DNA from: Bolinopsis microptera
Lineage: Eukaryota > Ctenophora > Tentaculata > Lobata > Bolinopsidae
Assembly: GCF_026151205.1 (NCBI RefSeq)
Contig: NC_087082.1
Location: 6,331,908 to 6,395,907 of the forward strand
Reading direction: 5' to 3'
DNA length: 64,000 bases
Part shown: positions 12,969 to 40,706 of the stretch, piece after piece
Layout of the letters: the number at the start of each line of letters is the position of its first letter
Position numbering within the stretch: the first letter of the stretch is position 1
Translations under genes and position numbers: made by a program
Notes under the pieces: model-generated
What the model saw: the letters and a program-made list of their open reading frames with translations, nothing else
What the model was told of the DNA's origin: nothing
The model's database searches: none

Positions 12969-13044
12969 ATGGCAAACAAACTCTCAGAAGAACAGATCGC
13001 CGAATTCAGGGAAGCATTCAGTCTGTTCGACAAAGATGGCGATG
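12969..13044 (+). CDS. Calmodulin gene 1, exon 1 (N-terminus and start of EF1)
   Basis: Encodes the first 25 residues plus one base: [20 protein letters not shown] then DKDGD, very close to ordinary calmodulin ([20 protein letters not shown]). It covers the first EF-hand helix and the start of calcium loop 1. The intron falls in phase 1 in the loop codon GDG|T, a position found in many animal calmodulin genes. Donor is GTACGG. The ATG is the only in-frame start and gives the normal calmodulin N-terminus. Calmodulin is the cytosolic calcium sensor that binds and switches many kinases, phosphatases and channels. Confidence 0.95.
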
Positions 13045-13208
13045 GTACGGTTATTTCCCGCTATTCTATGAATACCATTACGTTTTAAATCGAAATAGCA
13101 AATAAAAATAAATGTCATTATGGTTATAACATCACTTTATAAAGTATGGAAACTAACATTGCAACGTCTTTTATACCTCCTGATCTGGATTAACGGTAAC
13201 TCTCTCAG

Positions 13209-13297
13209 GAACTATCACAACAACAGAGTTAGGAACAGTCATGAAGTCCCTTGGACAGAGCCCTTGTGAATCAGACTTGCAGGATATGATCAACGAG
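13209..13297 (+). CDS. Calmodulin gene 1, exon 2 (EF1 exit helix, EF2 entry helix)
   Basis: Follows a TCTCTCAG acceptor and restores the glycine codon. It encodes [17 protein letters not shown] then [13 protein letters not shown]. Loop 1 thus reads DKDGDGTITTTE, canonical with acids at positions 1, 3, 5 and 12. The exon ends in phase 0 after MINE with donor GTAATT. The intron after it (13298-13463) contains several ATGGTAACCAGG motifs. Confidence 0.95.
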
Positions 13298-13463
13298 GTA
13301 ATTTAACCATTTCATTAACCATGGTAACCAGGTAACCAGGTAACCATGGTAGCCCGGTAAATTAACCATTTCATTTGGTGGTCGGGAATTTGCTTGTTAC
13401 CTGGTGAATTAGCTTCCAATTGGTTCTGTTGTGAATATTATCCAGGACTAACATTAAACCCAG

Positions 13464-13571
13464 GTTGACGCAGATGGTAATGGAACGATAGACTTCAAAG
13501 AGTTTTTGGAGATGATGACCAAACACATGAAAGAGGCTGACTGCGACCAAGAATTGCGGGAAGCCTTCAAG
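13464..13571 (+). CDS. Calmodulin gene 1, exon 3 (EF2 loop and central linker)
   Basis: 36 codons beginning [18 protein letters not shown], a canonical EF2 loop ([12 protein letters not shown]), followed by the interlobe linker [18 protein letters not shown]. The exon ends exactly where the C-lobe begins, in phase 0, with donor GTGGGT. This is the common 5' partner for all five downstream C-lobe cassettes, which all begin in phase 0 with VFD. Exons 1-3 give 91 codons. The linker is more diverged from ordinary calmodulin than the rest of the N-lobe. Confidence 0.95.
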
Positions 13572-14948
13572 GTGGGTTTGACTGTTTGATCCGCTGGATA
13601 GTTGTAGCAGTTACTATGGTTACTATAGTTACTATAGTTACCATAGTAACCTAAGCAGTTAGAGTTGTGGGTGTCTTATCTTTAATCGTTTGTACAGATC
13701 CCATCTTTAATCGTATGTACAGATCCTCCAAATTCAGCAGATTTTATTAAAGCTATTAAGCAAGTTTGATTAAATATTGATATTATACCGTGTGTAGTGT
13801 TGAGTGGTGAATATATAATATATTTAATGCTTATATAATAATATATAAATGTCCTATGTAGTGCCACTTCCGCGTGATATTGTGTGTGAAATATTGGCTA
13901 ACAAATTCAAGTTGATGTTTCTGAGTATTCAAGCTATTGTGCGAGAGAGAAAATATGTTTGTTCCAGAAAATCAATGCGGGGTATTATTATATTATTATA
14001 GTGCTATAAAGGATAAATCGCAACACAATATTCGTGAATGTGATGTACACGGAGAAAAGAATGTGATAGAAACACAATCCTCGTAAAGAGCAGATCCTAC
14101 ATCTATAAATATTATAAACTTTTACTACACAGCTTGAAAGCACATGAAATATAATTATTCAAAGTATGAAAATTACAGCATTGATAATTATACAAAAATC
14201 AACAGCAACCACAATTAAAAATTAATTAAAGCTATAGCGTTTATAAATTCCCCTGATTTTGTGATTAATATTTAATTCTCCCGCTGTTACCTGTTGTACT
14301 ATATTACTTTAATGTAATATGTGTCGCTGAAACGTTATTAAACTGCTTGCATCCCTTGCTTGTGTGAATTAGCGTTTTTTGTATTTTTATCACAGCTTTT
14401 TACTTTTACAATGTCCTCTGCTTGTGTCCAGGACGACAACTTCACTACAAGTACAGTTACCATAGCAACACCTACAGCCTGCGTTGCCTTTTTTATAACA
14501 TTTTTTTGTAACAGCACCAATAACATCATGCTTGTGACAATGTGACGATCATGCAGTGGCTAACAGCTCACAGCAAGCATTTACTGAGACGCAGAAGTCA
14601 GCTTGTGTGAGCGAGAAAACACTTGATGTGGTTGTCGTGGCGTGTGTACAGCCAATCACGTGACAGCTTCAAATTCGAATGTAAGATTGTGGAATTTACA
14701 GCACACTCCCGCTAATAACTTGTGGATATTATATGGATATCATGGAACAGCCTTCAATGTGACCACACAAATAGTGGTTCCAGTGGTTTCAGAACCACCA
14801 CAAATGGTGGTTCCAGTAAGTCATGTCCCAGTTGACACAGTGTTCTCTCTCGTGCAGCAGATTGTAAAGCAGCTACATTCCTCCGCATACAATCCTCCAT
14901 GATATCAGTTACCATAGCAACAGTTACCCTCTATCAACACTCCCGTAG
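13572..14948 (+). other. Intron 3 of calmodulin gene 1 before cassette A
   Basis: About 1.4 kb AT-rich intron. It holds a run of GTTACTATAG/GTTACCATAG motifs at 13607-13650, two copies of TTTAATCGTTTGTACAGATC-like sequence (13680-13725), and a small GTGGTTCCAG duplication (about 14770-14820). The 61-86 codon frames in it have no recognisable features. Confidence 0.7.
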
Positions 14949-15128
14949 GTCTTCGACACCGACGGTAACGGCTTCATCAGCTCCGACGAACTGAAGCAAG
15001 TGATGAAGAACCTGGGAGAGAAGCTGACCGACGAGGAGATTAACGAGATGATAAGGGAAGCTGATGATGACGGCAACGGACAGGTCGATTTTGATGAGTT
15101 CGTTAAGATGATGCAATCGACAAAATGA
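14949..15128 (+). CDS. Calmodulin gene 1, C-lobe cassette A (EF3 + EF4 + stop)
   Basis: Single exon of 59 codons plus stop, after acceptor CTCCCGTAG. It begins [19 protein letters not shown]. Loops [12 protein letters not shown] and [12 protein letters not shown] are canonical. It contains [10 protein letters not shown], keeping the lysine (Lys115 in ordinary calmodulin) that is trimethylated in many animals, and ends KMMQSTK. The four C-lobe methionines used for target binding (VM, EM, MM) are present. Joined to exons 1-3 it gives a 150-residue calmodulin. It lies nearest the N-lobe exons and is the most calmodulin-like cassette, so it is probably the default form. Confidence 0.93.
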
Positions 15129-16754
15129 TGGAAATGTTGTGGTCGAGTAAGGGACCTAGGGAAGGTTACTATGGTAACTATAGTAACCATAGTAACTAGG
15201 GCAGGCTCATTTCTCGATCTACGCAGATGACATAATTCCTTATCTTCACACAGTCTAGGCACTCTAGGCACATTTATTAGTTTAATTTAACTTTTAATTT
15301 ATGTATAAAAAAGTGTTTATTACGATACTGTTCAAGAAGTGTAAACCGTTGGAGTTTTAAGCGCAGTTATTTACTTTTGGCGCCTGATTCAGTTGTACCT
15401 TTGAAATTTCCTGTGAAAGAATATTTATAAGTTCAAACGAAGGAATGTATATAATATGCCTGCCCGATCCATATCTCCAGGATTCGAGCAGGATTGTGAA
15501 CTAACTAAAGTATAAGTCTTTTGAAATCCTCAGTTATTATATTAAGATACCATGTGAAGTCCATTTTTTTCCTTATCATTTCAGAATGAAATTCTTATCG
15601 ATTAGTTGTTGTTTTCTTGGAGTTAAAATAAATGTGAAACAAACGTTGAAAAATTATCCAAAAGTTATCAAATGTTCAGCTAATAAACGAAGTCATACTA
15701 TAATTTTGTATGATCACCACACACGTGTTGAAATAAATATATTTCCCTATTTTGCATGATACTCGTCAATGTGCTACTTTCTTGATTCTTGTATAATTGC
15801 CACCAGAAAAACCTATGGTAAATCGTAGTCTTCACGGGGATCTTTGCCATCAAGTAACTTCTTTCTTTCGAAAAATTGAATGTGTGAAAAATTAAATACT
15901 TGCCTCATGACGAGGAAAATTTTCAATATTCTCGCAATTTTGCCATCGAAAAACATCGAATATTTTAGGTTGAAATATGTTTGAGTTTAAGTTTCAGCCA
16001 AATGAATACGAAAAACTCTAAAACTGGATGGCATCGATCCCCACTTTCCTTTCTGCTCCCGTTAATTCAACATATTCTAATTAGCTCCCCTCAATTAAAA
16101 AGGCAGTACTACCTTAGATCTACTGGTTAATATTTCGGATGACCTTCCAGTAAAATTTCCGAAAACAAGGACACTCAAATAGTACTAGTAGTAGTAGATT
16201 GCATTCCGATGCTGGCCTGAGTGTTTTGGAGCCTGTTAAACTTTTGTTAATACTTTAATAGGTATTTATAACACAACCACATGCATACAAAAATGTTTAA
16301 CGTGATACTGCTACATATTTGTTCAATTTTTCCATGCCATGCACTGTGAGCCTGAATAGCGAAAGCAAATGATAATGTTGACAGTATAACCGTCAGCATT
16401 TAGTCTTGAAATTGTAACAAATGGGGTATCCATAGTAACTGTAAGAAATGGGGTTAAAACCTATACCACATTGAAACTGTAAGAAATGGGGTTAAAACCT
16501 ATACCACATTGAAATATATGAGAAGCTAAATTCAGGATTGCCATGGTTACCTGGTTACCTGGTTACCTGGTTACCAGGGTTGCCACTGCAGCCTTCCTAA
16601 TTCTTGAAGCAGCAGTTTCACATTTGATTTGTACACTAATTAAACGTGTTTTGATTAAAATGTACCGAAGATGAAATGTAAGCTCAAAAAGAAATCAGAA
16701 AGCAGTCAGATCTCTCAATTGCGACCACAAAACGCGACCGGCCTTATTATTTAG
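15129..16754 (+). other. 3' UTR of cassette A and intron/spacer to cassette B
   Basis: Starts with an ATGGTAACTATAGTAACCAT motif cluster (15164-15195). AATAAA occurs at about 15627 and is a candidate poly(A) signal. A 38-bp direct duplication (GAAATGGGGTTAAAACC) lies at 16445-16515, and a CCATGGTTACCTGGTTACC cluster at 16540-16580. No other exon seen. Confidence 0.6.
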
Positions 16755-16931
16755 GTGTTTGATAAGGACGGAAACGGAAAGATCAGCAAGGAAGAGCTGA
16801 AACTAGTGATGAAGAACCTGGGGGAGAACCTGACGGACGAGGAGATTAGTGAGATGATATTGGAAGCCGATGATAACGGCGATGGTGCCGTAGATTACGA
16901 GGAGTTTGTTAAGATGATGCAAACAAAATGA
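16755..16931 (+). CDS. Calmodulin gene 1, C-lobe cassette B
   Basis: Single exon of 58 codons plus stop, after acceptor TTATTTAG. It begins [19 protein letters not shown]. Calcium loops [12 protein letters not shown] and [12 protein letters not shown] are canonical. The methylation motif is changed to LGENLTDEE, so the target lysine is lost. The helix after it reads EMILEAD, with leucine replacing the arginine usual in EMIREAD. It ends KMMQTK. Flanks on both sides are homologous to cassettes C and D. With exons 1-3 it gives 149 residues. It has its own 3' UTR, so I infer an alternative last exon. Confidence 0.92.
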
Positions 16932-17519
16932 TGCGGTTACTATGGTAACGGTTGTCACGCTAGTTTTAGTTTGCAAGATCAGTTTTCTCTTCCATGGGGT
17001 GGAAATTCTACTGGACGTTCTTCCTTAAGTTCATATTTAATGTTGAGGTTTACTATAAAATTACTTTACTTAACGTTATATATAATGGGGGTAGTTTCGA
17101 TCAGAGCCGTACTGGCTAAAGTGCAGCTGGATGTGTTGAACTTAAAATATGGAATTTTTATTTTTGGGGTAATTCTAGAATAAAATAAAACTAAATATGT
17201 TCATAAATTTGTGATTAAATTTTATAACTTCAATAACCATAATCCTGTGATGGACGAGCCGCTACCTTTAGATTATGTTTAATCTTATACGACAGAAGTG
17301 AAGGAAATTGGACCTTCATGAAATCGTGGCATTTTAACACAAGTACTTTTTCTTTAGATTTATAAACGAATAAACGGACTTAGGACTTAAAGATTAGCGA
17401 TTCTTTTGCGTAAAGGTGAACGTTTTGTTGACGGATTTTCTGATTTGATGAATTTTGTTCGACTAATATGCTCTGTCAATATTGACTTGTTTTTATCAAA
17501 ATTCGACTCGCATCAACAA
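16932..17519 (+). other. 3' UTR-like sequence of cassette B
   Basis: Homologous to the sequence after cassette C: both share CACGCTAGTTTT, TTTGCAAGATCAGT, CTTCCATGGGGTGGAAA, GACGGATTTTCTGATTTG-like and ATGCTCTGTCAATATTGA. AATAAA occurs at about 17181. The 70- and 88-codon frames here are not supported as genes. Confidence 0.7.
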
Positions 17520-17657
17520 CAGGGACAAAAAAAATCGCGGCATGTGCGGGATCGCGATTTTTCCCTTTCTTTGCGACAAATTTTATGTTTCGTCTGTTTT
17601 GCTTGTCGCGGTATCGCGGTTTGTGGGCAAAATAATCGCGATTTTCTTTTGTCCCTG
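17520..17657. mobile_element. hAT-like MITE, 138 bp, with 8-bp target duplication
   Basis: Terminal inverted repeats start CAGGGACAAAA and end TTTTGTCCCTG. The element is flanked by a perfect 8-bp direct repeat, ATCAACAA (17512-17519 and 17658-17665). An 8-bp duplication and CAGGG ends are typical of hAT transposons. It contains no protein, so it is non-autonomous. The matching position after cassettes C and D has no such insertion, so it came after the cassette duplications. Confidence 0.9.
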
Positions 17658-18175
17658 ATCAACAATAAATAAGTATAAACGAAAGGAATCGATGTAGTCC
17701 GAGGAGCCCTAATCCTCCTCGCGTCCTAAGATGGCGTTTCTCTTGTCTCATATACGAGCCATTAATTGAATCATTTAAAAATGAGCTAAAATATATCGCC
17801 AGTCTAATAGGAAGCATTTGAATTCCGGTTACCATGGTTACCATTGGTTACCTTGGTCATCTGAATAAGCCCTCACTTTTGCTGCTGCTAAATGTTTGTT
17901 GATTTTGTTAGCATGTTTTGAGCTACGAGCGTGAATGAATGAATGAAAAAGAAAGCACTGTTGATAGTACTAATTAGCCTCAGCATTTAGCAGAATTTAA
18001 CGTGTAGGAGCATGCAGTGAAGCGAGATAAGATCTTACCACCATGATAGTGGACGAGTCATGAGCGTGTGTGAATGCAAAGTCCGAGCAGAAATCAGGAA
18101 TCAGTCAGATATCTCCCAGATCACAGAACGAGAAAATTAACAGAACCCTCCTAACACGCACGGTCTTCCTCTTAG
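17658..18175 (+). other. Spacer and intron before cassette C
   Basis: Contains a GGTTACCATGGTTACC cluster at about 17827-17850. From about 18065 it becomes homologous to the sequence upstream of cassettes B and D (AGCAGAAATCAG, CAGTCAGATATCTC, ATCACAGAACGAG, AAAATTAACAGAA). ATTAAC may be the branch point. Confidence 0.6.
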
Positions 18176-18352
18176 GTGTTTGATAAGGACGGAAACGGAA
18201 GGATCAGCCAGCAGGAGCTGAAACTGGTTATGAAGAACCTGGGGGAGAACCTGACGGACGAGGAGATTAACGAGATGATAAGGGAAGCTGATGATGACGG
18301 TGACGGACACGTTGATTTTGATGAGTTTGTTAAGATGATGCAAACAAAATGA
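18176..18352 (+). CDS. Calmodulin gene 1, C-lobe cassette C
   Basis: Single exon of 58 codons plus stop, after the strong acceptor CTTCCTCTTAG. It begins [19 protein letters not shown]. Loops [12 protein letters not shown] and [12 protein letters not shown] are canonical. The methylation motif is LGENLTDEE, without lysine. It ends KMMQTK. It is the closest relative of cassette B (same length, same ending, shared flanks). With exons 1-3 it gives a 149-residue protein. Inferred to be an alternative last exon with its own 3' UTR. Confidence 0.92.
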
Positions 18353-19336
18353 AGCGGTTGTCACGCTAGTTTTTGTTTGCAAGATCAGTATTCTCTTCCA
18401 TGGGGTGGAAACACTGCTGGACGTCCTACCTTTATATTTAATGTAGAGACCTCTTACGAGCATGCTTTACTTAATATCATAGCGAGTTCAACTTCAATCA
18501 GAGCCCCTTTGGTTAGAGTGCAGCTAAATATAGAATTTGTAACCATGGTTACCAGGCATATAGTATGGAATTTGTATAGGTTGAAGTTGAGATCTCATGT
18601 TGCTATGTTGTTAAAATATGAAACTTTATTTTTGGGGTAATCTAGGAAAAAATGTAGATAAATATGTTTCACCCAAAGTAGTGGTATTCATTAGTTTGAA
18701 ATTGAATGTTATATATTATCTTTGACCTTAATTCCGCGAAGTATGACTAGAGCCCACAAAGTTTAGATAATTGTTTCATTGTGCAATTATTGCACTACAG
18801 AAGTAAAGAATATTGAATCTATAACCTATAACGAAATCTCAGCACTAGAATCCTTCACAGCTAACATTTTTATGACAATAGACTTTTTTCTTCAAATTTA
18901 GAAACGCATATATAATATAGTATACCATGGTAACCATGGTTACCATGGTTACCACGCATATAGTATGGAATACTATATATATACATACTATATTAATATA
19001 GTATGGAGTTAGAAGCTTCTTTTATATAAGCTTGTAAGGTGAACGTTTTGTTGTCGGATTTCTGATTTAATGAATTATGTTCGAGTATTGTTCTGTAGCA
19101 ATAAGTTATACTAACATATTGTGCTCTGTCAATATTGTATAGAACATATTTTTAGTAAACGGAATTATGAATTGACTTGTTTTTATTCAAATTGGACTCA
19201 CTTAAATAAATGCATATTGCATAATATCCAATGGGTCAGTACAGTTTACCTACAATAGAAATTCAGTTAGGCAGCTTCTAATGAACCAACCCTACAACAC
19301 AACAATTGGAAGAATGTGACTATCCCGATATCAACC
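18353..19336 (+). other. 3' UTR-like sequence of cassette C
   Basis: Homologous to the region after cassette B for several hundred bases, without the hAT-like insertion (TTGGACTCACTTAAATAAAT matches the empty site). AATAAA occurs near 19205. A CCATGGTAACCATGGTTACC cluster lies at 18924-18957, and the motif is also at 18538-18555. Confidence 0.65.
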
Positions 19337-19817
19337 CTCGCGTTTGTGTGCTAAACAAACCCTTTACACTAGGGCTTCTCGCTTAAATAGCAAAACCTCG
19401 AGTTTGTGTGCTAAACAAACCCTTAATACTAGGGCTTCTCGCTTAAATAGCAAAACCTCGAGTTTGTGTGCTAAACAAACCCTTAATACTAGGGCTTCTC
19501 GCTTAAATAGCAAAACCTCGAGTTTGAGTGCTAAAGAAACCCTTAATACTAGGGCTTCTCGCTTAAATAGCAAAACCTCGAGTTTGTGTGCTAAACAAAC
19601 CCTTAATACTAGGGCTTCTCGCTTAAATAGCAAAACCTCGAGTTTGAGTGCTAAAGAAACCCTTAATACTAGGGCTTCTCGCTTAAATAGCAAAACCTCG
19701 AGTTTGTGTGCTAAACAAACCCTTAATACTAGGGCTTCTCGCTTAAATAGCAAAACCTCGAGTTTGTGTGCTAAACAAACCCTTAATACTAGGGCTTCTT
19801 GCTTAAATAGCAAAACA
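19337..19817. repeat. 60-bp minisatellite, eight copies
   Basis: Eight copies of a 60-bp unit containing CTCGAGTTTGTGTGCTAAAC and CTAGGGCTTCTCGCTTAAAT. Copies 4 and 6 share two linked variants (gtttgAgtg and ctaaaGaaac), pointing to a two-unit (120-bp) amplification step. As 60 is a multiple of three, both strands stay open (160 and 149 codons); this is not gene evidence. Confidence 0.97.
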
Positions 19818-20119
19818 CGCTCCTGAAAACCGTGTAGCTAAAACGTTTCGTAGCCTGTTTAACTTTTATCAACATGTATTTATCCATTTTGATAAAAGTT
19901 AAAATGTTTATAAACACAACTGCATACAACATACCAACATTTTTAACAAAATCAGATCTAGTCATCCAGGTTATAAACTAGTTGACTGTGAGATTAAGAA
20001 AGGGAAATATGTGAATATTATATGGATATCATTAAAGCACTGTTCACAGAATCTTTAGCATTTACCCTTCTTTCTTAAACTTTAAGAATAGAGGGCAAGA
20101 AGTTTTATCACTTTAAACT

Positions 20120-21910
20120 GTATGTATCGAAATCAAGAGGTAGAATTGTTGTCACTTTGAAGCAAATCAACAGGTATAATTTCTATCACTTTGAAGGCAA
20201 ATCAACAGGTATAATTGTTATCACTTTGAAGGCAAATCAACAGGTATAATTTCTATCACTTTGAAGGCAAATCAACAGGTATAATTTCTATCACTTTGAA
20301 GGCAAATCAACAGGTATAATTTCTATCGCTTTGAAGGCAAGGCAAATCAACAGGTATAATTTCTATCACTTTGAAGCAAATCAACAGGTATAATTTCTAA
20401 CGCTTTGAAGGCAAATCAACAGGTATAATTTCTATCGCTTTGAAGGCAAATCAACAGGTATAATTGTTATCACTTTGAAGGCAAATCAACAGGTACAATT
20501 TCTATCACTTTGAAGCAAATCAACAGGTATAATTTCTATCACTTTGAAGGCAAATCAACAGGTATGATTTCTATCACTTTGAAGCAAATCAACAGGTATA
20601 ATTTCTATCGCTTTGAAGGCAAATCAACAGGTATAATTTCTATCGCTTTGAAGGCAAATCAACAGGTATAATTTATATCACTTTGAAGGCCAATTAACAG
20701 GTACAATTTCTATCGCTTTGAAGGCAAATCAACAGGTACAATTTCTATCACTTTGAAGGCAAATCAACAGGTACAATTTTTATCCTTTGAAGGCAAATCG
20801 ACAGGTACAATTTCTATCGCTTTGAAGGCAAATCAACAGGTACAATTTCTATCGCTTTGAAGGCAAATCAACAGGTATAATTTCTATCACTTTGAAGCAA
20901 ATCAACAGGTATAATTTCTAACGCTTTGAAGGCAAATCAACAGGTATAATTTCTATCGCTTTGAAGGCAAATCAACAGGTATAATTGTTATCACTTTGAA
21001 GGCAAATCAACAGGTATAATTTCTATCACTTTGAAGGCAAATCAACAGGTATAATTTCTTTCACTTTGAAGGCAAATCAACAGGTATAATTTCTATCACT
21101 TTGAAGCAAATCAACAGGTATAATTTCTATCACTTTGAAGGCAAATCAACAGGTATGATTTCTATCACTTTGAAGCAAATCAACAGGTATAATTTCTATC
21201 GCTTTGAAGGCAAATCAACAGGTATAATTTCTATCGCTTTGAAGGCAAATCAACAGGTATAATTTATATCACTTTGAAGGCCAATTAACAGGTACAATTT
21301 CTATCGCTTTGAAGGCAAATCAACAGGTACAATTTCTATCACTTTGAAGGCAAATCAACAGGTACAATTTTTATCACTTTGAAGGCAAATCGACAGGTAC
21401 AATTTCTATCGCTTTGAAGGCAAATCAACAGGTACAATTTCTATCGCTTTGAAGGCAAATCAACAGGTATAATTTCTATCACTTTGAAGGCAAATCAACA
21501 GGTATAATTTCTATCGCTTTGAAGGCAAATCAACAGGTATAATTTCTATCACTTTGAAGGCAAATCAACAGGTACAATTTCTATCGCTTTGAAGGCAAAT
21601 CAACAGGTATAATTTCTATCACTTTGAAGGCAAATCAACAGGTATAATTTCTTTCACTTTGAAGGCAAATCAACAGGTATAATTTCTATCACTTTGAAGG
21701 CAAATCAACAGGTATAATTTATATCACTTTGAAGGCAAATCAACAGGTACAATTTCTATCACTTTGAAGGCAAATCAACAGGTACAATTTCTATCGCTTT
21801 GAAGGCAAATCAACAGGTATAATTTCTATCACTTTGAAGGCAAATCAACAGGTATAATTTCTTTCACTTTGAAGGCAAATCAACAGGTATAATTTCTATG
21901 ACTTTGAATT
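20120..21910. repeat. 35-bp minisatellite, about 50 copies, with higher-order structure
   Basis: Unit of 35 bp: GGCAAATCAACAGGTATAAT plus TTCTATCACTTTGAA, with 33-bp units lacking GG. Rare variants recur in the same order about 520-590 bp apart: TTCTAACGC near 20400 and 20921, GGTATGATTT at 20561 and 21152, GGCCAATTAACAGG near 20690 and 21280. Part of the array has thus been duplicated as a block. It lies between cassettes C and D. Confidence 0.97.
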
Positions 21911-22191
21911 TATCATTATTAAAAGGTGCAGGTCAGCACGGTACTTGTGTATCTTTGTGTGTAAGTGTTCAGATTGAAAGCAACCGTTGCTTAGCAACGT
22001 GAAGCTGAAAGCAGCGTGATGTGATCTTCCAGTGTGATCTTTCTTTGATTATCACATGATAATTGTGACGTGTGTCTTGAATGCGAAGCCCGAATGCAGA
22101 AGCAGAAAGCACTCAGATCTGTCTCTACCAATATCTAAATCACAGAACGAGAAAATTAACAGAAGCTTACCCGCCCGGTCTCCTTCCTTAG
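21911..22191 (+). other. Intron end upstream of cassette D
   Basis: From about 22070 homologous to the sequence before cassette C: AATGCGAAGCCCGA, GCAGAAAGCACTCAGATC, AATCACAGAACGAG, AAAATTAACAGAAGC. Conservation of this intronic strip in B, C and D reflects duplication and may include splice control sites. Confidence 0.65.
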
Positions 22192-22371
22192 GTGTTTGAC
22201 AAGGACGGCAGCGGCAAGATCAGCAAGCAAGAGCTGAAAGAAGTGATGAAGAACCTGGGGGAGATCTTGACGGACCAGGAGATAACAGAGATGATAAGGG
22301 AAGCTGACGATAACGGGGACGGTGAAGTTGATTTCGAGGAGTTCGTTAAGATGATGCAGACCACAAAATGA
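22192..22371 (+). CDS. Calmodulin gene 1, C-lobe cassette D
   Basis: Single exon of 59 codons plus stop, after acceptor CTCCTTCCTTAG. It begins [19 protein letters not shown]. Loops [12 protein letters not shown] and [12 protein letters not shown] are canonical. The methylation motif is LGEILTDQE, with isoleucine where ordinary calmodulin has lysine. It ends KMMQTTK. Flanks resemble B and C but are more diverged. Joined to exons 1-3 it gives 150 residues. AATAAA at about 22534 is a candidate poly(A) signal. Confidence 0.92.
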
Positions 22372-24355
22372 AGGGAATGGTTTGCAAGGCTGCAGTCCTG
22401 TCTGCTGTGGCTGGAAATATTGCTGGACGTCATAGTTACCATAGTTACCATAGTAACATTCACTTGTTTTAAATCACATATATAAATTATAAGGGTAACT
22501 TTGATCAGAGCCATTGGATTGAGTGCAACTAAATAAAGAATTTGTATAGTTTAACTTTAGAGTTGAAATCATGCTATTAAAAGGATTTTGTTTTTGGGTT
22601 TCATTCATGAATTTGAATTTGTATTTTGTATATCTTCAAATGATCTCGCAAAGACCAAAACCTTTAGAAGTTTAGATAATTGTTCATTTTGCATTACACA
22701 TCTACAAAAGTGGAGGAATTCGTATCTATTACCTCCATAAATTTTAAAATTATGAAATCATGGCTTTGACTCCTTCACAGCTAACAGTACGATTACAATA
22801 ATTATAAACGAATATAATAATATCATGTGGAATTAAGTGTTACCATTGTTACCATGGTCACGATTCTTTTATAGTTCTATATAAAGATAAACGTTTTGTT
22901 GACGGATTTTCTGATTTGATGACGAATTTTCTGATTTGATGAATTTTGTTTACCTTAACAAAAAGTTAAATCTAACATAATATGCTCTGTCAATATTGTA
23001 TAGCAAAACCAAAATGAATTATCTGAATTGACTTGTTTCAATTAAAATTTTACCCATTTAAATAATTTATGATATTCCAGGGGTCAGACGTCAGTGTTTA
23101 AAACTTTAAAACAACAAAACATTACCCAAAATAGATTGTAGGTTGGGCACTGGGCAATTTTAGTTTATGTTAATTAGTATATTGACGAAAATTCTTACTC
23201 TATCATATCTCCGAGATAAGTTTCAAAGTTTTACCCCTCATCCGAACGCTCTGTCGGGAGTTATATAGCTATAATAGTACATCAGAGTTTACCGTGTATT
23301 ATTAATACACGGTACGGGTAAGCTCTGATGTACGAATAAAGTGCCCTAAATTGAGTGAGATAGGTCGGGAGTACTGCACTGTAGACAGTTTTTGTAGAAA
23401 AATATTGCAGTTATATGGCTGCTGCTATCTGAGAACATTCTAGAAGGGTCTTGGGAGCTGTATATCCTCCGGCCCTCCGGTTACTACTTTACTTGGGAGC
23501 TGTATATCCTCTATCTGGCTCTCCAGTTACTACTTTACTTGGGAGCTGTATATCCTCTGGCTCTCCAGTTACCATCGTTGTTAAATACGTCAAAAAATCG
23601 GCTCAAAATACGGCGCATTCAATGTTCGAGAGAAATGCGTAAGAATACGTCAAGTTTCCATTCAAGTTTCCATTCAATAAGCCCCAAAAAATTGAATTGA
23701 GACCCAGTTAAATTTTGTCCGGAATACGTTTAAAATTTGTCCGAAATACACGCGCAGATCAAATTAACGCCGCGCATTTTGAATTCCTTGAATTTTCTGA
23801 GCAAGTAGGCCATAATATATATAAGGCATAACAGGGTCGCGGTCACAAATCAGCGTGGACGGTCCGCGGTCTAAAGTAGCATTAGCGAGTAGCGACCATA
23901 GTCGCTACTTCATGATACTTCTGATCAGTGAGAGTGGTGGCTAGAGTTTGCTTTTCCGGAACTGAGACTCCTCTCCCCATAGTGGAGAGGGCTAGGACCA
24001 TATTAAGGAAGTATGGGCTCTCGACTTTAGAGAAAGGAATAGCTTTTAGTCAGAAATAGTTTCTTTTAGACTATAATTATAAATAATTAGAATTACTATT
24101 AGGTGTAGCTATCCGTGCATCAAAAGCAAAAAGTGAAAAGGCAGTTTATTTAAACACGTGAATCGACCATTCAACAGCTAGCTGACATACTGCCAGACTA
24201 ACTAAAACTTCCTTTTCATTGATCAGGATAGCTGCATCTAAAACCATTATTTAAAGTGTCATATCAACTGGCCCAAAATCTGTGTAACTGGGGATAAAAC
24301 ATAAAACCATTATGTCAGCACGTTGTGTTAATCTTCACCAAAACGTTGTCGTCAG
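22372..24355 (+). other. 3' UTR of cassette D and spacer to cassette E
   Basis: Shares TGGAAATATTGCTGGACGTC and TTTTGTTGACGGATTTTCTG with the B/C flanks. It holds a GTTACCATAGTTACC cluster (22434-22455), a near-perfect palindrome (23277-23332), about three degenerate copies of CTTGGGAGCTGTATATCCTC (23450-23575), and a hairpin-rich patch at 23880-24000. No exon seen. Confidence 0.6.
23277..23332. repeat. Near-perfect palindrome
   Basis: Arms beginning GTACATCAGAG and ending CTCTGATGTAC, meeting at TACCGTGTATTATTAATACA. The right arm has a small insertion. It may be a very short fold-back element or a structured site. Confidence 0.8.
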
Positions 24356-24454
24356 GTATTTGACCAGAATGGGGACGGGTTCATTTCAGCAGAGGAGCTG
24401 AAAACAGTTATGAGGAACCTAGGAGAGACACTTACTGATGACGAAATAGATCAG
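24356..24454 (+). CDS. Calmodulin gene 1, C-lobe cassette E, first part (EF3)
   Basis: 33 codons after acceptor [31 protein letters not shown] then [13 protein letters not shown], ending in phase 0 with donor GTTTGT. Loop 3 is [12 protein letters not shown], canonical. The lysine of the methylation motif is threonine (LGETLTDDE). Unlike cassettes A-D, the C-lobe is interrupted here, at the same place as in calmodulin gene 2 (after DITK). The second half lies 8 kb downstream at 32453. Confidence 0.92.
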
Positions 24455-25424
24455 GTTTGTGAAATATCACGTGTTGTCGTGTTCATATTGAATTTGATAA
24501 GACAAACTAACATTAAACGTAAATTGAAGCGAAAATGCGCATGATGCAGCTGTTATCAAACTTGTGTAATAACTAATATAAAATGGAGGTTAGACTTAGA
24601 AGATGTGACAAACAATTTCACGGGTCTGGTCTCATCTTGAGTGGACCAAATATCCATAAAACAAACATGTTCCATGTCATTTCGTTGGCCATGACTCCGA
24701 AGATGAATATATAGCGATAACCCTACTCAAGATCATAAACAATATCAGGGTAAGGTTTATGTCTATTAGACATAACCCTTAACCTGATCATAACCCAGAA
24801 CCCTAAGCACATATTTCCAATCCACTACCGTTATAGCCATGACAACCATAGCCCTAAACAATTGAATTCAGCAGCTCATCACGTGATCTAAACAGGTTTT
24901 TGCTCATAACTCCATAGTGAAGCGTATTTACCTTTTGATATGGCAAAATAATATTTTGTGTACCCTCGCGAGGCCGGGGCCGTTCATAAATATTTAAAAA
25001 ATATAATAACGGGCAGCATATTAGTAAATTACATTACCGTTATAATGATATTATGATAATGTTTAGGGCCACAACCTCGGTCGCTCATAGCCTAGCCGTA
25101 GCATGCTGCAAGTGCAATTCTTCATTCTGCGCCCCAATCTCCCGCTCAACCATAAACCACCGATTAATAATTCAAAAGCTTTTCAAACATCATCATTAAT
25201 AATAATAATTATGAACAGTCTTGCGCTAATTCCATTTCGAAAAGATATAAACCGTTGTTGAAGTGTGCGACGTGATATGGATTGGGCAGTATCCATGATC
25301 CAAGAATTCTGATCAGCGGAATTCCGAATTAGGCCTAAACATAATTATTATAACTCAACATAGCCCTAATCGCAACCGTTTTTGAAAACGATATTAACTT
25401 AACCGCTATCTTACTAGCTATATA

Positions 25425-26275
25425 CAGGGTGAGTTGAAAATGCAATGGAAAATAGTGTGTGGAATGTAAAAATCGATAATTTTTTATGAAAGAGCAAATT
25501 TTGAAAGGTGAATTGCTATCAGTTCATAAACTTTACAAATTTCATTCTTGCCTCTCATTAAATTCTAACTTATAATTTGGTTGATTTTTGGCAGTTTTCC
25601 AAAAAATCGTAAATTCGTCCTAATAAGGTTCTCAAATCGCGTGCCCTGAAAATCGAGTCTAAAAATCTATCTTCTCGTACATTTTTTGAGAAAAACTCAT
25701 CAAAAAACGAGGTCCAAGATTTGCAAAATCGGAAAAACAATTTTGAAGGCGTATCTCAAAATTCTGTCCGGATCCGGTTCATCTCTTCTAAATGATCCCT
25801 AGAAGTAGAACATATCCTGAACGTTTCAGGGTGATTGCTCAAAAAATGTAGGACATAGGAGAAAATAGATTTTTAGATTCGATTGTCAGGGCACGCGATC
25901 AAAAATCACCAGGCCACACGCGCTGACCTTTGACCGGCAATAATCAAAAGCATCTGATAAATATTACTCCCCTCTATCAGAAACAACTAAAAAGTAGATT
26001 TTGAGAAAATTTGAAAATTTCCATGAAGACCCCGGCCCCCTTAATACAGTCAAGTCGGCAAATAGACAATTGTCTTAATCGTTGTCGTTATCAACATGTC
26101 CTAGCTAATAAAGGACGATGGGTTGAGCAAATTATTAATTATTAAGTATTTTTATTGTATTATTATAATATTTATATATTTTCATTACCTAAATATGCAA
26201 AAATTAAGTGGAAATTTCATTTTTCAAAAAAATTAGAGCCATTTACATTCCACACACTATTTTCAACTCACCCTG
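25425..26275. mobile_element. Non-autonomous TA-flanked element (Tc1/mariner-like MITE)
   Basis: Terminal inverted repeats CAGGGTGAGTTGAAAAT at the left and ATTTTCAACTCACCCTG at the right, extended by AGTGTGTGGAATGTAAA. TA dinucleotides lie directly outside both ends (25423-24 and 26276-77). The left end has an extra GCAATGGAAAAT within the repeat. There is no transposase. A TA target fits Tc1/mariner-type elements. Confidence 0.8.
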
Positions 26276-26787
26276 TACCTATTATAAAGCGAGACAATAG
26301 TTATGGATGGATGGATGGATCCGTACCATTTTACTGACACCACGGCATCAACTTTAACGTGAATTTCCGCAAAAACCGTATAGTAAAAGACATACAACTT
26401 AAACTTTTTCGACTGGGTCAAATGCTTTAATGGCCTCCAAATCAGCATGAAAAAAAAATTAGCCAAGAAATAGGAGGTTTAGAGCCCAAAATTTGGACTC
26501 CGGCCCCAAGTGGTGTCAAAAACGCGAATTAAATAGGTAATAATTATTTTAGTCTCTTATTTTAGAGTTATACGGGTTCCTGCTAGTCGGCAATAATAAG
26601 TATAACCGTTTTGAAAACGATAACCGGTTTTGAAATAATATAACGATTATTGTTCCTCAAAACGATCATCGTTTTTCAAAACGATAAAATTGGACCCACC
26701 ATAATTGTCTCACTGTTAAATTATTGTTTCCTGCAAAACTAAAATCTAGGAAACGTTCGCGTTTTACTGATGGATGGATCGATTGAA

Positions 26788-26915
26788 TTAATATGCACTA
26801 ATATGCACTAATATACATTAATATGCACTAATATGCACTAATATACACTAATATGCACTAATATACACTAATATGCACTAATATACACTAATATGCACTA
26901 ATATACACTATTATC
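26788..26915. repeat. 10-bp tandem repeat (CACTAATATG)n
   Basis: About 12 copies of CACTAATATG with cactaataTA variants. The same repeat is found at 32105-32312, near the other end of the segment carrying the RTE-like element. Confidence 0.93.
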
Positions 26916-26918
26916 ACA

Positions 26919-27070
26919 CTTTCGAGCCAAATTTGGCAGGAAAGCAGAATTTATATTCCATGCCCCGATGGGGAGCACTGGCTCTCACCCTGGGGCATGA
27001 AATATCAATCAGTTGCTCAGAGAGTGCTCCATAGAAACTAGGAGCCCGCTCTCAGCAACTGATCTACTAC
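26919..27070. repeat. Inverted copy of the motif at 31876-31915, plus local hairpin
   Basis: CACTTTCGAGCCAAATTTGG and GAAAGCAGAATTT are in reverse complement near 31875-31915 (AATTCTGCTTTCC, GGCCAAATTTGGC). CAGTTGCTCAGAG and CTCTCAGCAACTG at about 27012-27060 can pair. It may be the end of an element interrupted by the LINE. Confidence 0.55.
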
Positions 27071-27255
27071 TGTAAGGTACTGATCAAAATACAGATTTAA
27101 ATCAATAACCTGAAGTAGTCTACGACCATAAATGCAATGATCAGATAAACTTTCCAGAATAAGGAAAAATGTATATTTATACTCGGTTTTTAAAACATTT
27201 CCTTGCGTTTGAGATGCGTTAACTTACTTACTTGTAGTTACTTGATTAGGTCTCC

Positions 27256-28390
27256 TCAATCATTCGAGTGGCCTGCACCAATGAACTCCCGTTTGTGACG
27301 TATCATCTCCCTCCAAAGTTTGCGGTCACTAGCCATCTCGCTCGCTCCTTCTAGATCTATGTCAGTGTTTCCTGTAAACGCTGCAGCATCTTCCAGCAAA
27401 CATTTCCTCCAGTTCTTTCTTGGACGGCCCCTAGATCTTCTCCCATGGGCAGGGGTCCAGTTAAGCAGGTACTTAGGAAGCCTAGTGTCTGGCATTCTGG
27501 TGACATGGCCAAACCAACGCAGGCGGTTTGCTCCTATGTACGTCTCTACTGGATTTATCTTTGCACGCTCCAGCACTTCAGTGTTTCTAACCCGATCGAG
27601 CCATCTTATCCTAAGTATTCTCCTCAAGCAACGCTGATGGAACACCTCAAAGCGATGTAGCTGCTTTTTGGTTGTGTTCCAAACCTCACTACCATATAAC
27701 AATATTGTCAAAACCGCTGCCTTATAAATCCTGATCTTTGTATAAGACTGGATGTTGCGGTTTTTCCATATATTACTCAGTTGATTGAAGGCTCCGGAAG
27801 CTTTCTGAATCCTAGCTGACAACTCACGGTCGATAGTACCGTCGCTGGAAATAATTGTACCTAAGTACGTAAAATCACTAACTTGCTGCACTGGCGTGTC
27901 TTCAACAGTGATGTTCACTGTGGCTTCTTTCGTGTATGGCCGTTGAGAGGTTGCTTTACCAATGACCATAGCCTCAGTCTTTTTACCATTGATTCTAAGA
28001 CCTCCCTGGGCACCATACATACACAAAAGGTCAGTTGTTTCTTGAAGACCTTCCTCGCTGTTATCCAGTACAGCCATGTCATCTGCATAATCTGTATCTA
28101 ACACAGTGATATCATCAACAAGCGGACTGATAGATCTTTGAAGAACCGCTCCGTGGGACACCACTTTGTTGCTTTCTGTTCTCTCAGCAGCCACATTGAG
28201 GCAGACATTAAAAAGTGGGGGACCCTGAATGTCTCCTTGGCCACTGCCTGAACTTACTTCAAACCATTCTGATAGTTCACCATTGTGTCTAACAGCACTA
28301 ACAGTTCCATTAAAGAATGCCTGTATTATTCGAATGTATCTACATGGCAGGCCATAATGACTGAATGCTTTCCAAATATAATTCCTGTCG
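27256..28390 (-). pseudogene. RTE-like LINE, 3' half: reverse transcriptase palm to C-terminus
   Basis: Minus-strand frame with the reverse transcriptase catalytic box DTDYADDMAVLDN, then TYLGTIISSDGTIDRELSAR, AAVLTILLYGSEVWN and the C-terminal RCLRRILRIRWLDRVRN and NRLRWFGHVTRMPDTRLPK, typical of RTE-clade elements. The frame can be read upstream to about 28390 through QAFFNGTVSAV and GSGQGDIQGPPLF. There a single frameshift separates it from the upstream half. It lies antisense in the intron of cassette E. The 3' end at about 27223 carries a short AAGT-type tail. Confidence 0.88.
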
Positions 28391-29925
28391 ATGCGGAATC
28401 AAAAGCTGCCTTGAAGTCCACAAAATTTACATACAGGGGGAGATTATATTCAATGCAGTTATGTATAATAGTGCGGAGTGAATAAATCTGATCAATGCAT
28501 GATCTGTTCTTTCTAAACCCACACTGATTGTCTCGTAGCAAACTTTCTAAACCGTCACTCATGCGTTGTAATATGATGATTTGATACAGTTTAGATGCTG
28601 TAGATCTTAGAGTGATCCCCCTATTATTGGAGCAATGAGAGGTATCACCCTTCTTTGGTACAATTATCACGATGCCTTTCAACCAGTCGTCAGGCACTGT
28701 TTCTGAATTCCAAACTTTAGAGAACAATTTCTCCATCCTATCCACAAGACCACTTGCCCCATACTTTAACTGCTCATTAGAGATTTCGTCGATCCCAGCA
28801 CTTTTGTGGTTCTTCAATTTTTTGAGACAGTTTAAAATCTCAAGTCTAGTGGGGGGACCATCACCATCACCAAGATAAGGAAAGCATGGAACCACTTCAA
28901 GATGGTCCAGGTCAGACAGATCCGCATTCGTGGGAGGAGGGTTTAATAGCTCCGAAAAATGTTCTCCCCATCTCTCTCTCTGAGCAGAAGGATCAGCAAT
29001 CAACTTCCCGGATTTGTCTCTTACAGCAGTTGATTTTCGATTCTTCTTACCGGACAGTGTTTTTATCCGTTGCCAGACTTCCCTTTGCCGGCCATGGACA
29101 GCAGCTGTTTCCAGATCTGCTGCAACTCTAAGAGCCCAATTCTCGTCGTCTTTCCTGCAGCTCTTTTTGACAAGTTTGTTGGCCCGAGAATACTCGCTCC
29201 TATTGTTGTTGTCACTAGGCGCCATCTGTTTAATCTTACTGCGTTCTGCAATAAGGCTTTTTGTCTCCTGAGACAAATGCTGCTGCTTTCTGCGCCGGGG
29301 GCGCTCACCCAGTACCTCCATAGACACTTCTTTAATGGTATCCTTAACTAATGTCCATTCTCCATCAAGATTCTCCTCCATTGGTAGGCAGCTAAAACGA
29401 TTTTGAAGAGCAATGCAGTACTCTTCAACCTTGGACTGATCTCTAAGATTCTCAATTGCTGGAGATATCCTACGAGAAGCGTTCATTTTTTGAACTGCCA
29501 TAAGTTTGACTCTAAATTGACCCCGAACCAAATAATGATCGGAGCCAATGTCTGCACCCCTGCATGATCTTACGTCAAGTAGAGAGTGACTCCACTTGGT
29601 AGAAATACAGACATGGTCAATCTGATTTACTGTGCGGCCATCTGGAGACTTCCAACTTCCTTTATGAATATCACGATGCTGGAAAAGCGTCCCACCGATT
29701 GTCAGCTGATGTAATGCACAGAAATCTAATAGTCGAAGGCCGTTGTCATTTGATGAAACGTGAAGGGAATGCTTACCAATCACACCGGACCAAGCTGAAT
29801 TATCTTGGCCAATGCGAGCATTTAGATCTCCAAGTAAAAACTTCACGTCATGAGCTGGTAGTTCATCAAATGCCCCAGATAGCTGCTGATAAAAGTCATC
29901 GTTTACCCCGAATCCGTTAAGCGAA
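28326..29925 (-). pseudogene. RTE-like LINE, 5'-truncated: endonuclease C-terminal part and reverse transcriptase fingers
   Basis: Encodes the second half of an apurinic-type endonuclease (VKFLLGDLNARIGQDNSAW, NQIDHVCIS, GADIGSDHYLVRGQF), then the first part of the reverse transcriptase (LKKLKNHKSAGIDEISNEQL, IIVPKKGDTSHCSNNRGITL, NQCGFRKNRSCIDQI, VNFVDFKAAFDS). The N-terminal endonuclease strand with its first catalytic residues is missing: similarity stops near NGFGVNDDFYQQL at about 29925, and a T-rich stretch follows. 5' truncation is usual for LINE copies. With the frameshift, it is inactive. Related sequences are often misnamed craniofacial development protein 2 in animal genomes. Confidence 0.88.
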
Positions 29926-31870
29926 ATACATTTTTTTTTGTACAACCTTTTCAAGCTGTTGCTTTTTTTATTGCACTTCATAGTTCAAAGCTTAATTAGG
30001 CTTCGGATGATGAAACAAAGTAAAAACTCCCTGGCTTGTGCGACTAACCCCATATCGCTACTATTCAAATATAGTGCCAAGTCGGCCAGTCACTAAGCAG
30101 CTAATTAATACAGATTCGGTTGATGATACAAACTCCCTGGCTCGTACGACTAGCTAGTATTCAAGTATAGTGCCTGGCACAGTTCAGAGTGACTTAAGGT
30201 TACTGAAAAGGACATCAAAGTTTACAAGCAGACTTGAAAGTTGCACAAAGTTTTGGTACTTGTCAGCGATACAATCAATCAGGCTAATTAATTTCCTTAA
30301 TCGCTTACTTGAAATTAAAAAGGAAGTGTCAGAACAAACTACAGTCACCCTCACAAAAATAGTAAACACTAAAAGTAAACGATGTTTGATTCATTGATCG
30401 AACGAATAAAACGCACAAAACAAGAATCTTGGTGTCAAGTAGTTATATTTGAAAGAAAATTATTGTCAAGAATTGATAAAGGGCTGGTCAGCAAATCATA
30501 ACGTAATAAATTGTGATACATTACGAATATTAATTTAGCCACATTTCAGCCATTTCAGACCTCACTTTTAACCCCCTCTGATCCCTTCTGTGAGCCATAT
30601 TCCATATAGAAATTGTGCAGAAATTATACTAGGCTTTTCCAAATCGGCTTCCCCTAGAATGGCTTGCGAAATTCGTGGCTGATATACAAAGAGACTTATA
30701 AATTCTGTACAATAAAGAGCGAAAATTCTATCCCTGCACCAGTTTTAACTGAAGTTTAGTTAGTGCAATAAAAAATTCTATAAAATATATTATGCATATA
30801 AAGATATCAAGGGACGAATGGCGTAACTTAATCAGCTAATCCGGTTATAAATTGGTCTGGTCGCTGGGGCAAATTTAGGTCCGATGATTGATATGCTGCC
30901 ATTCTTTAGACCAATTCAATATTGCTAACAGTACGGGTGAACTGCCTGGCAATGACCAGGGTGGTTATAATAGGCTGGTGAAGTGCGTTCTAAAATGGTA
31001 TTACCAGGCCGATTATCGGGCTATTAAGTCAAGAGTTACTTTCATAAACAATACTAAAGAGTACGGATGTCTGCTCTTGATATTAAAACAATCTAGAGTT
31101 GTATTGAACTTGAAGAGATACATTATATTACGGCTGTTCTGATAATTTCTAGCGAAGCAAATAATGGCAAGATGAATATAAGCTGACTATACTCGATAAA
31201 ATTCAATAAAAGTCAATGATTACAATTAGTTCCAATGATAAATCATTCTGAAATAAGAGACAATCAAGACGGACGATAATATTGTTGATATATGAATTAG
31301 GGCGTGTAGTACAAGTACAACATGAACAGTTGATAATTTGGACTTATAAATAGACAATCATGGCACCACAGCCCTATTCAAATATAACAACCAGGAAATA
31401 CTATCACCTTATTGCAGATACAGATTAGTATTACATGATAAGGACTAGGATGTATAATCTACACTAAAACAGATGTTCTATACATTATACATCTTCAGTT
31501 TTAATGACTCAAAATATATCTAATAGAAATAAAGTATAAGAATCACGTCACACCGATTGATATGCAGGTTATCATTTATGATTAAAAGACGCGCTCGTTG
31601 CGGAATATTCTAGACTGCAATAAGTACAAGACCCATAGGCGAGAAATACATTAATATTCCATGCACTACGTATCAGTAAAAAGCAAATTGGGCGCGGCGG
31701 TTAGCATTCACTGTGTCATAAATGTGAGCACAAAAGATTCTAATTTCACGTATTGTATCTTTAATATCTGAAATACTAACCCATCGAGAGCTATATATAG
31801 TTTGAACATTATAAACATAAATAAGTTCGACATGTCTAGTTTGCTTTGGTGAGATTTATAACTAACGTTT
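29926..31870. other. Intronic unique sequence with a short duplication
   Basis: A segment of about 80 bp with CTCCCTGGCT, GTACGACTAGC and CAAGTATAGTGCC occurs twice (30025-30080 and 30130-30178). The rest shows no gene or known element. Confidence 0.5.
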
Positions 31871-32104
31871 GATCAAATTCTGCTTTCCCGGCCAAATTTG
31901 GCTCCAAAGAAAGTGTGATAAAACATTAATCACATGCCTTCTCATGCGATATCAACATTTTCAAAACTCGGCAAGCCTCGTAATAATTGAAAATGTCGAT
32001 ATAACCCTCGGCAAGCCTCGGGAAATATCGAAACTTTTGCTAACTCGGCAAGCCTCGTGGGCGAAAGTTTTGATATCGCATGAGAAGGCATGTGATAAAT
32101 GTAT
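31871..32104. repeat. Fold-back sequence with CTCGGCAAGCCTCG repeats
   Basis: CATGCCTTCTCATGCGATATC at 31935 pairs with GATATCGCATGAGAAGGCATG at about 32072-32092. Between them CTCGGCAAGCCTCG occurs three times (about 31967, 32009, 32045), and the stretch GAAAATGTCGATAT has an inverted partner. It resembles a small hairpin element. Its outer part is repeated inverted at 26919-26954. Confidence 0.75.
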
Positions 32105-32312
32105 AATATGCACTAATATGCACAAATATACACTAATATGCACTATTATGCACTAATATGCACTAATATGCACTAATATGCACTAATATGCACTAATATG
32201 CACTAATATGCACTAATATGCACTAATATGCACTAATATGCACTAATATGCACTAATATGCACTAATATACACTAATATGCACTAATATGCACTAATATG
32301 CACTAATATGCA
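32105..32312. repeat. 10-bp tandem repeat (CACTAATATG)n, second block
   Basis: About 20 copies of CACTAATATG, with a few ataTAcac variants at the edges. Confidence 0.95.
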
Positions 32313-32452
32313 TGTTAAATATACCCCAATAAGTGACCTACTCAAGCGTGGTTATCCGCACATGGCAATGATGGTAAAATAGTAAAATCCAAGTTAGGCA
32401 TCCAAAATGGAGTTCCATGGACCGGGATAATATGACTTGAAAACAATTTCAG

Positions 32453-32530
32453 ATGATAAAAGAAGCAGATTCAAATGGTGACGGCTCAGTGGACTACGAG
32501 GAGTTCTGTAAGATGATGACACCCAAATAA
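32453..32530 (+). CDS. Calmodulin gene 1, C-lobe cassette E, second part (EF4 + stop)
   Basis: 25 codons plus stop after acceptor ACAATTTCAG: MIKEADSNGDGSVDYEEF then CKMMTPK. The loop DSNGDGSVDYEE is canonical. Together with 24356-24454 it completes a C-lobe and a 149-residue calmodulin with exons 1-3. The stop codon TAA (32528-32530) lies inside an AATAAA hexamer (32526-32531). If that hexamer is the poly(A) signal, the 3' UTR is extremely short. Another signal further downstream is possible. Confidence 0.92.
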   Translation: MIKEADSNGDGSVDYEEFCKMMTPK

Positions 32531-39664: not shown

Positions 39665-39740
39665 ATGTCGAAATCTCTGTCAGATACTCAACTAGCTGAT
39701 TTTAAAGAAACGTTTACCCTGTTCGACAAAAACGGAGATG
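39665..39740 (+). CDS. Calmodulin gene 2, exon 1
   Basis: 25 codons plus one base: MSKSLSDTQLADFKETFTLF then DKNGD. Same length and same phase 1 intron as exon 1 of gene 1, with donor GTAAGA. The N-terminal helix is clearly calmodulin-like but diverged (KETFTLFDKNGDG against [13 protein letters not shown]). The start codon gives the exact calmodulin N-terminal length. Gene 2 as a whole encodes 148 residues, the same as ordinary calmodulin, on the same strand as gene 1, about 7 kb downstream of cassette E. Confidence 0.94.
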
Positions 39741-40093
39741 GTAAGACTACCAGTACCAAATAAGGTAATGTAACCATAGTAACATTAACTTATATGGTAA
39801 TGTAACCATAGTAACATTACCTTATATGGTAAGACACCGTAAAAAGATATAATGATGATGATATGTACACGCTGTAAACTAAAGTTGAAAATATTTTTTC
39901 CAGAATTCAAATTTTCCTGGCGAGTATTGTTTTCTCAGCTTACTTAGCTTTTCAGTTACTTTTCAGTACCGGTTGGCTTTTCATCTCTTCGACAAAAATT
40001 ATTGTTTTTTTTTGCGTATTTGAAAAAAAATCATAGCCTTCAGATGATCGATATGAATACAAAAATGGATATAAGAAACCCGACAATCCTCAG

Positions 40094-40182
40094 GAACTAT
40101 CACAACAGATGAGTTAGAAGTAGTAATGAGGTCGCTAGGACAGGATCCTACTGAAGAATACCTTCAAGCTACCATCGCTAAG
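40094..40182 (+). CDS. Calmodulin gene 2, exon 2
   Basis: After acceptor AATCCTCAG. Encodes GTITTDELEVVMRSLGQ then DPTEEYLQATIAK. Loop 1 is DKNGDGTITTDE, canonical. Ends in phase 0 with donor GTAAAT, as in gene 1. ATIAK replaces the DMINE of ordinary calmodulin, so the methionine of the N-lobe patch here is lost. Confidence 0.94.
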
Positions 40183-40284
40183 GTAAATCACTGTTTACCT
40201 ACAGCTCAGTAAATTTAAATGCAGAAAACTTATCAAAAAAAGCAATTCCATAGTTACACTATTAGTTACCATAGTTACACTACT

Positions 40285-40416
40285 GCAGTCCAGCCCTATT
40301 GTTACCTCTACCTGCAACCCTCAGGTGGGGGGGGGGGCGTTACCATAGTTACACTATTAGTTACCATAGTTACACTACAGTCCAGGCCTTATGTTACCTC
40401 TACCTGCAACCCTCAG
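40285..40416 (+). repeat. Duplicated 3' splice site upstream of exon 3 of calmodulin gene 2
   Basis: The intron end is present twice: TTACCTCTACCTGCAACCCTC followed by AGGTGG occurs at about 40300-40330 and again at 40395-40420. The first copy continues into a run of G instead of the exon (GTGG then Gs), so it would be a decoy acceptor. CATAGTTACACTA motifs lie between the two. Confidence 0.88.
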
Positions 40417-40524: not shown

Positions 40525-40706
40525 GTGAGTGAAAATTGTAAAAATAAGGGATCACTCCCAAAGTTCCGTATTCAGTATACTCACACTCTTTACTTATTAG
40601 TGAAACATAAAGCCACTCATGTGATTAAACTAATGATGGAGTAACGATTTGTATTGACCTAATCCATAATCTATGATTCTCCTGTCTCCACTAAATTTCC
40701 AATCAG

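Follow-up and report, generated by a model that had tools for sequence, protein, structure and literature searches.

How does a single calmodulin N-lobe come to be followed by five complete C-lobes? The question is raised by a 64,000-nucleotide stretch of the genome of the ctenophore Bolinopsis microptera (contig NC_087082.1, positions 6,331,908 to 6,395,907 of the forward strand; the whole stretch is referred to here as the window, and positions are counted from its first letter), in which a calmodulin-like gene, gene 1, carries both elements. Our analysis suggests that gene 1 is probably one calmodulin-like gene with five alternative terminal exon cassettes, A to E, cis-spliced from one pre-mRNA. 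This reading is the best fit to the genomic sequence because a single compatible donor was found, the five acceptors are phase-matched, the ratio of nonsynonymous to synonymous substitution rates (dN/dS) is low in all six pairs of cassettes A to D, and each cassette has a separate stop.

By tblastn with human calmodulin and exon joining, the N-lobe is found in three plus-strand exons within 12969-13571, which comprise 91 codons and end in phase 0. Exon 1 (12969..13044, 76 nt; tblastn E 1e-11) carries the start codon and the first EF-hand (EF1) to mid-loop, and ends in phase 1 at the donor ATG/gtacgg; the position of the intron that follows matches that in the canonical calmodulin gene. Exon 2 (13209..13297; E 8e-12) encodes the remainder of the EF1 loop up to the start of EF2, and exon 3 (13464..13571; E 3e-13) supplies the EF2 loop and the central linker, ending with REAFK in phase 0 at AAG/gtgggt, the common donor for the cassettes. 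Five complete C-lobes come after them on this strand; every one of them has an acceptor of matching phase, EF3 and EF4 loops of canonical form and a stop of its own. Cassettes A (14949..15128, TGA at 15128; E 2e-23), B (16755..16931, TGA at 16931; E 7e-22), C (18176..18352, TGA at 18352; E 2e-23 for a match that extends 51 nt into the upstream intron) and D (22192..22371, TGA at 22371; E 6e-21) each encode EF3 and EF4 in a single exon. Cassette E is split into E1 (24356..24454; E 2e-10), which encodes EF3 and ends at the donor CAG/gtttgt, and E2 (32453..32530; E 5e-7), which encodes EF4 and ends with TAA. The intron between them spans 7,998 nt and contains a long interspersed nuclear element (LINE)-like element, seen as minus-strand reverse transcriptase frames at 27256-29984, both with RVT_1. 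The tblastn E-values of the C-lobe pieces (5e-7 to 2e-23) rule out chance matches.

Joined to exon 3 across introns of 1,377, 3,183, 4,604, 8,620 and 10,784 nt, cassettes A to E give predicted products of 150, 149, 149, 150 and 149 residues. Two of the five isoforms were submitted to Pfam, and EF-hand_1 was found in four stretches of each (E 5.7e-40 for A, 2.2e-41 for E); isoform A matches a solved calmodulin structure at E 3.8e-69. Judged by their sequences, the five products are calmodulin-like EF-hand proteins, with four EF-hands bearing canonical loops in 148-150 residues. All the elements that the initial annotation of this DNA had described, one N-lobe of three exons (EF1, EF2 and linker) ending in phase 0 and five intact, in-frame C-lobes with acceptors, loops and stops, were reproduced here.

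Its description of the product as a central calcium sensor did not hold. The matches of gene 1 to human calmodulin are 60-81% identical, some of them extending into introns, whereas a canonical calmodulin gene lies elsewhere on the same contig (C11:10.968-10.977 Mb, about 4.6 Mb away), with matches 84-100% identical to the human protein, read up to residue 140. We take a canonical calmodulin to be one with over 90% identity to animal calmodulin, and Lys115 to be the calmodulin trimethylation site; in gene 1 residue 115 is lysine in cassette A only, and N, N, I and T in B to E. On both identity and Lys115, gene 1 is a divergent calmodulin-like paralogue and not canonical calmodulin.

The five C-lobes appear to share one N-lobe. 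In agreement with the earlier claim that no further N-lobe exon precedes any cassette before the next gene, gene 2, no second N-lobe was found in 13572-39600 with the N-lobes of gene 1, gene 2 and another locus (L032) as queries, or with human calmodulin in tblastn. Outside the cassettes, the best match of the three N-lobe queries in this interval has an E-value of 0.044 and lies on the minus strand, inside the retrotransposon; a comparable N-lobe search recovers the diverged N-lobe exons of downstream genes. In L037, the 9.9 kb that precede the window, there are no calmodulin matches at E 0.01. Searches of the genome (264.65 Mb in 232 contigs) with 12900-15700 and 22000-23100 returned no second copy or haplotig among the matches listed; the other gene-like match was one of 118 bases at 73% on contig C3 (L031).

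The sequences of cassettes A to D show that they have been kept by selection and are not decaying. By the Nei-Gojobori method over 56 codons, their six pairs have dN/dS of 0.12-0.20 at a synonymous rate (dS) of 0.43-1.14. Neutral simulation yielded a nonsynonymous share as low as that observed in 0 of 600 runs for five of these pairs and in 4 of 600 for B-C. Tandem pseudogenes are ruled out by the open frames together with dN/dS far under 1 in A to D. Between these cassettes and E the synonymous sites are saturated (proportion of synonymous differences, pS, 0.84-0.92), with a nonsynonymous proportion (pN) of 0.21-0.24 and pN/pS of 0.23-0.29.

We propose that one pre-mRNA would carry exons 1-3, with EF1, EF2 and the linker, and that the exon 3 donor would join one of the five acceptors, the chosen cassette supplying EF3, EF4, the stop codon and its own 3' untranslated region (UTR) and poly(A) site. 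The outcome would be five calmodulin-like proteins with a common N-lobe and differing C-lobes. We further infer that a single promoter serves the gene, that all five junctions are used, that the end is chosen as splicing competes with polyadenylation, and that the isoforms differ in function. The claim of one gene giving five products of 149-150 residues thus stands as to its anatomy and as the best fit, with cis-splicing still a proposal. The term mutually exclusive last exons needs correction: each cassette is a last exon that brings its own 3' end, so that strict exclusion by splicing is only inferred, and nothing in the arrangement requires it to be the work of splicing alone.

The splice sites are for the most part consistent with this proposal. 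A, B, C and D are each directly preceded by a TAG codon, which the acceptor forms, and hence the whole C-lobes of A to D are translatable only after splicing; for E1 the nearest in-frame upstream stop is nine codons away. A weight matrix built from 15 hand-picked calmodulin-family acceptors of the same genome, including those of exons 2 and 3 of gene 1, ranks the acceptors of C, E2, D, A, B and E1 at 11, 12, 28, 38, 133 and 353 among the 1391 AGs in 13600-39600. A 26-nt stretch before cassette C (18120..18145, plus strand, starting 56 nt before the cassette) is identical to 22139-22164, which starts 53 nt before D; it contains TTAAC, which we take to be a branch-site-like motif, and may have a function in splicing, and the region has no run of 12 or more in common with cassette B. 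Poly(A)-type motifs follow the stops: AATAAA occurs 499, 554 and 604 nt after that of A, and first at 248 nt past B, 853 nt past C (with AGTAAA at 450) and 161 nt past D, while E has ATTAAA at 128 nt and no AATAAA within 1.5 kb. Such motifs are frequent in AT-rich DNA and are weak evidence.

Several observations weigh against one gene with five cis-spliced ends. The acceptor of E1 is the weakest of the set, with a score of 1.2 against a leave-one-out training range of -2.4 to 11.7, and cassette E requires an 8-kb intron holding a retrotransposon. To use D or E1, splicing would have to pass over three or four preceding acceptors, together with poly(A)-like motifs, within a span of 8.6-10.8 kb. 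No competing RNA structure was detected when the 120 nt upstream of each cassette were paired with the first 329 nt of intron 3: pairing was no better than in 12 shuffles each (z 0.0, -0.6, 1.8, 2.6 and 0.0 for A to E, positive values meaning weaker pairing), and the docking/selector pairing of C and D was weaker than that of the shuffles. Cassette A has no flank homology with any other cassette at the threshold used, so that its tandem origin rests on coding sequence. The dN/dS values compare paralogous cassettes over only 56 codons, and the codons at which one cassette alone differs are few (synonymous/nonsynonymous: A 6/1, B 1/1, C 1/0, D 4/2; 16 in all), below the need of a per-cassette test.

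Of the alternatives, the one that survives best is that some cassettes are separate genes, each of which would have its own promoter, begin with a small non-EF exon and encode a C-lobe-only 'half calmodulin' protein. Every cassette has its own stop and a possible 3' end, as this would require, and homology searches would miss a start exon that is short and lacks EF-hand sequence. The first in-frame ATG of the cassettes is codon 19; codons 1-18 are nonetheless constrained, though least of the three segments compared (pooled pN/pS 0.30, against 0.23 for codons 19-33 and 0.16 for codons 34-56), which disfavours a start at that ATG, as codons 1-18 would then be untranslated. A phase 0 non-EF start exon would constrain these codons equally, so that their constraint does not count against separate genes of that kind. 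No EF-hand start exon was found in 13572-39600, however, and the phase 0 junction and first codons of the cassettes (VFD) fit the exon 3 donor exactly; we consider separate genes improbable. A spliced-leader operon of separate C-lobe genes was rejected in view of the TAG directly before A to D and of the constraint on the codons ahead of the first in-frame ATG. A search for the Hormiphora spliced-leader pattern gave no signal: each of its 22 matches carried 3 mismatches, and the reversed control gave 24.

It seems rather less probable still that the working cassettes number just one or two (A, perhaps E), and that the others are duplicates which have yet to decay. The weak acceptor of E1 and the middling one of B would agree with a gene of few working ends, but dN/dS is 0.20, 0.14 and 0.12 for B-C, B-D and C-D (dS 0.43-0.78), and in simulations of single copies drifting neutrally, 29-33% retain an open frame at 0.3 changes per site. 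Slightly below this we place trans-splicing, in which N-lobe exons and cassettes would come from different transcripts that are joined in trans. Exons joined in this manner are known from Drosophila mod(mdg4) and lola, and the long distances from exon 3 to the cassettes speak for it. Spliced-leader trans-splicing operates in ctenophores, the leader being present on 56% of Hormiphora Iso-Seq reads, a figure that its authors regard as a lower bound for mRNAs (PMC8527503). All cassettes of gene 1 nevertheless follow the N-lobe on its own strand, in a span of about 19 kb, and cis-splicing needs no extra steps; we judge joining in trans very unlikely. An assembly artefact or collapsed paralogues, which the several minisatellites between cassettes might favour, can be all but dismissed, as the cassettes differ from one another at 21-59 of 168 bases and the two genome searches gave no other copy of 12900-15700 or 22000-23100 among the matches listed.

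B, C and D have homologous flanks both upstream and downstream; for E no flank homology was found on the upstream side, the 3' comparison having used the E1-E2 intron and not the flank after E2. A to D group together in the C-lobe tree with modest support (80/89), while 8 of the 12 inner branches are open and the placement of E is unsettled. A to D are intronless, and E is more diverged and has an intron in EF4 after codon 123 (phase 0), in common with gene 2; the corresponding intron of the canonical gene lies 8 nt earlier, at codon 121 in phase 1. Probably, then, an ancestral gene had an E-type end alone, and an intronless C-lobe arose later, was duplicated to give A to D and diverged under selection. 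This order and direction, with the E-type original first, is the simplest story that the sequences would allow. The intron at codon 91/92 was considered as a feature peculiar to this cluster and rejected as such, since L032 and L034 also carry it.

The differences between the C-lobes are confined to part of the sequence. In the alignment of A to E, 35 of 55 columns are invariant. All ten EF3 and EF4 loops have D at position 1 and E at position 12, with D, N or S at the other side-chain ligand positions, and no change is seen at the 13 hydrophobic pocket positions examined. Variation occurs in 20 columns, among them 99, 102, 107, 115, 126 and 135, as well as ligand positions 95, 97, 131 and 133, where the exchanges are among D, N and S. 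With Ca2+ ligands and pocket kept and 20 other columns variable, the five proteins would bind Ca2+ with differing affinity and choose differing targets. More tentatively, and with slightly less than even confidence, we suggest that gene 1 may act as a combinatorial Ca2+ sensor, in which one N-lobe is combined with swapped C-lobes, and affinity, targets and methyl-lysine (Lys115 being present only in A) differ in a manner set by cell type in an early-branching animal.

Gene 2 (39665..42623, plus strand; read by eye) is a separate calmodulin-like gene, made up of an N-lobe of its own and a single C-lobe; its intron positions are those of gene 1 with cassette E. At 41361-42568 it carries 24 near-identical 50-bp units that span the 3' splice site and the first bases of the EF4 exon (tatttcag/ATGATAAAGGAAGCAGACC); the last copy alone runs on into the exon, giving a ladder of duplicate acceptors. 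A minisatellite of the same acceptor-plus-exon-start type lies just past the window on contig C11 (L036:4743-5162), where about eight 51-bp units cover the acceptor and the start of the EF2-loop exon of a calmodulin-like gene. Three more N-lobe-like EF-hand exons occur downstream on the same strand (window 56018-56170 and 60886-61044; L036:4143-4289), which gives the region the look of a cluster of calmodulin-like genes that have diverged. Between cassettes C and D lie minisatellites of 35 bp in 51 copies (20130-21908) and 60 bp in 8 copies (19336-19816). Tandem arrays of EF-hand frames occur elsewhere in the genome, at C13:11.08 Mb, C1:22.00 Mb, C5:17.01 Mb, C2:11.25 Mb and C3:3.42 Mb; the unit of the C13 array is a photoprotein close to mnemiopsin 1 (PDB matches to mnemiopsin 1 at E 8.6e-126 and to berovin at 7.9e-125).

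The proposed architecture of gene 1 has counterparts in other animals. Drosophila pip likewise has a constant 5' part followed by tandem homologous terminal exons; in the account that we draw on it is treated under UTR duplications (PMC9013439), whereas in the ctenophore gene 1 the repeated unit encodes a calmodulin lobe. PGRP-LC of Drosophila also chooses among alternative 3' regions, and there the choice is described as made by competing RNA structures (PMC9013439), for which our limited test of gene 1 gave no pairing signal. Vertebrate GNAO, like gene 1, is a gene for a signalling protein in which the last exons are duplicated where the protein contacts its partners, but it has a mutually exclusive final pair in a G protein (PMC5896119) and not five ends. 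Within the ctenophores, Mnemiopsis Mhc2 is predicted to be diversified by duplicated exons, which are reported as internal, mutually exclusive and two in number (PMC3912159), unlike the terminal set of gene 1. Abalone has several calmodulin isoforms in one invertebrate, as predicted here, yet these are described as four whole separate genes, the authors having excluded splice variants of one gene (PMC6171432). Among the matches listed in the open-access literature we found no paper on calmodulin lobes exchanged by splicing. The alternative-terminal-exon arrangement is known (pip, PGRP-LC, GNAO), and the exchange of a calmodulin lobe appears unmatched among those open-access matches.

Calmodulin function rests on two lobes, each with its own Ca2+ kinetics and targets, and the diversity of animal calmodulins is usually described in terms of whole-gene copies. 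If our reading of gene 1 is true, the gene keeps one lobe fixed while the other is exchanged and would constitute a natural lobe-exchange experiment, and splicing would be able to diversify calmodulin lobe by lobe.

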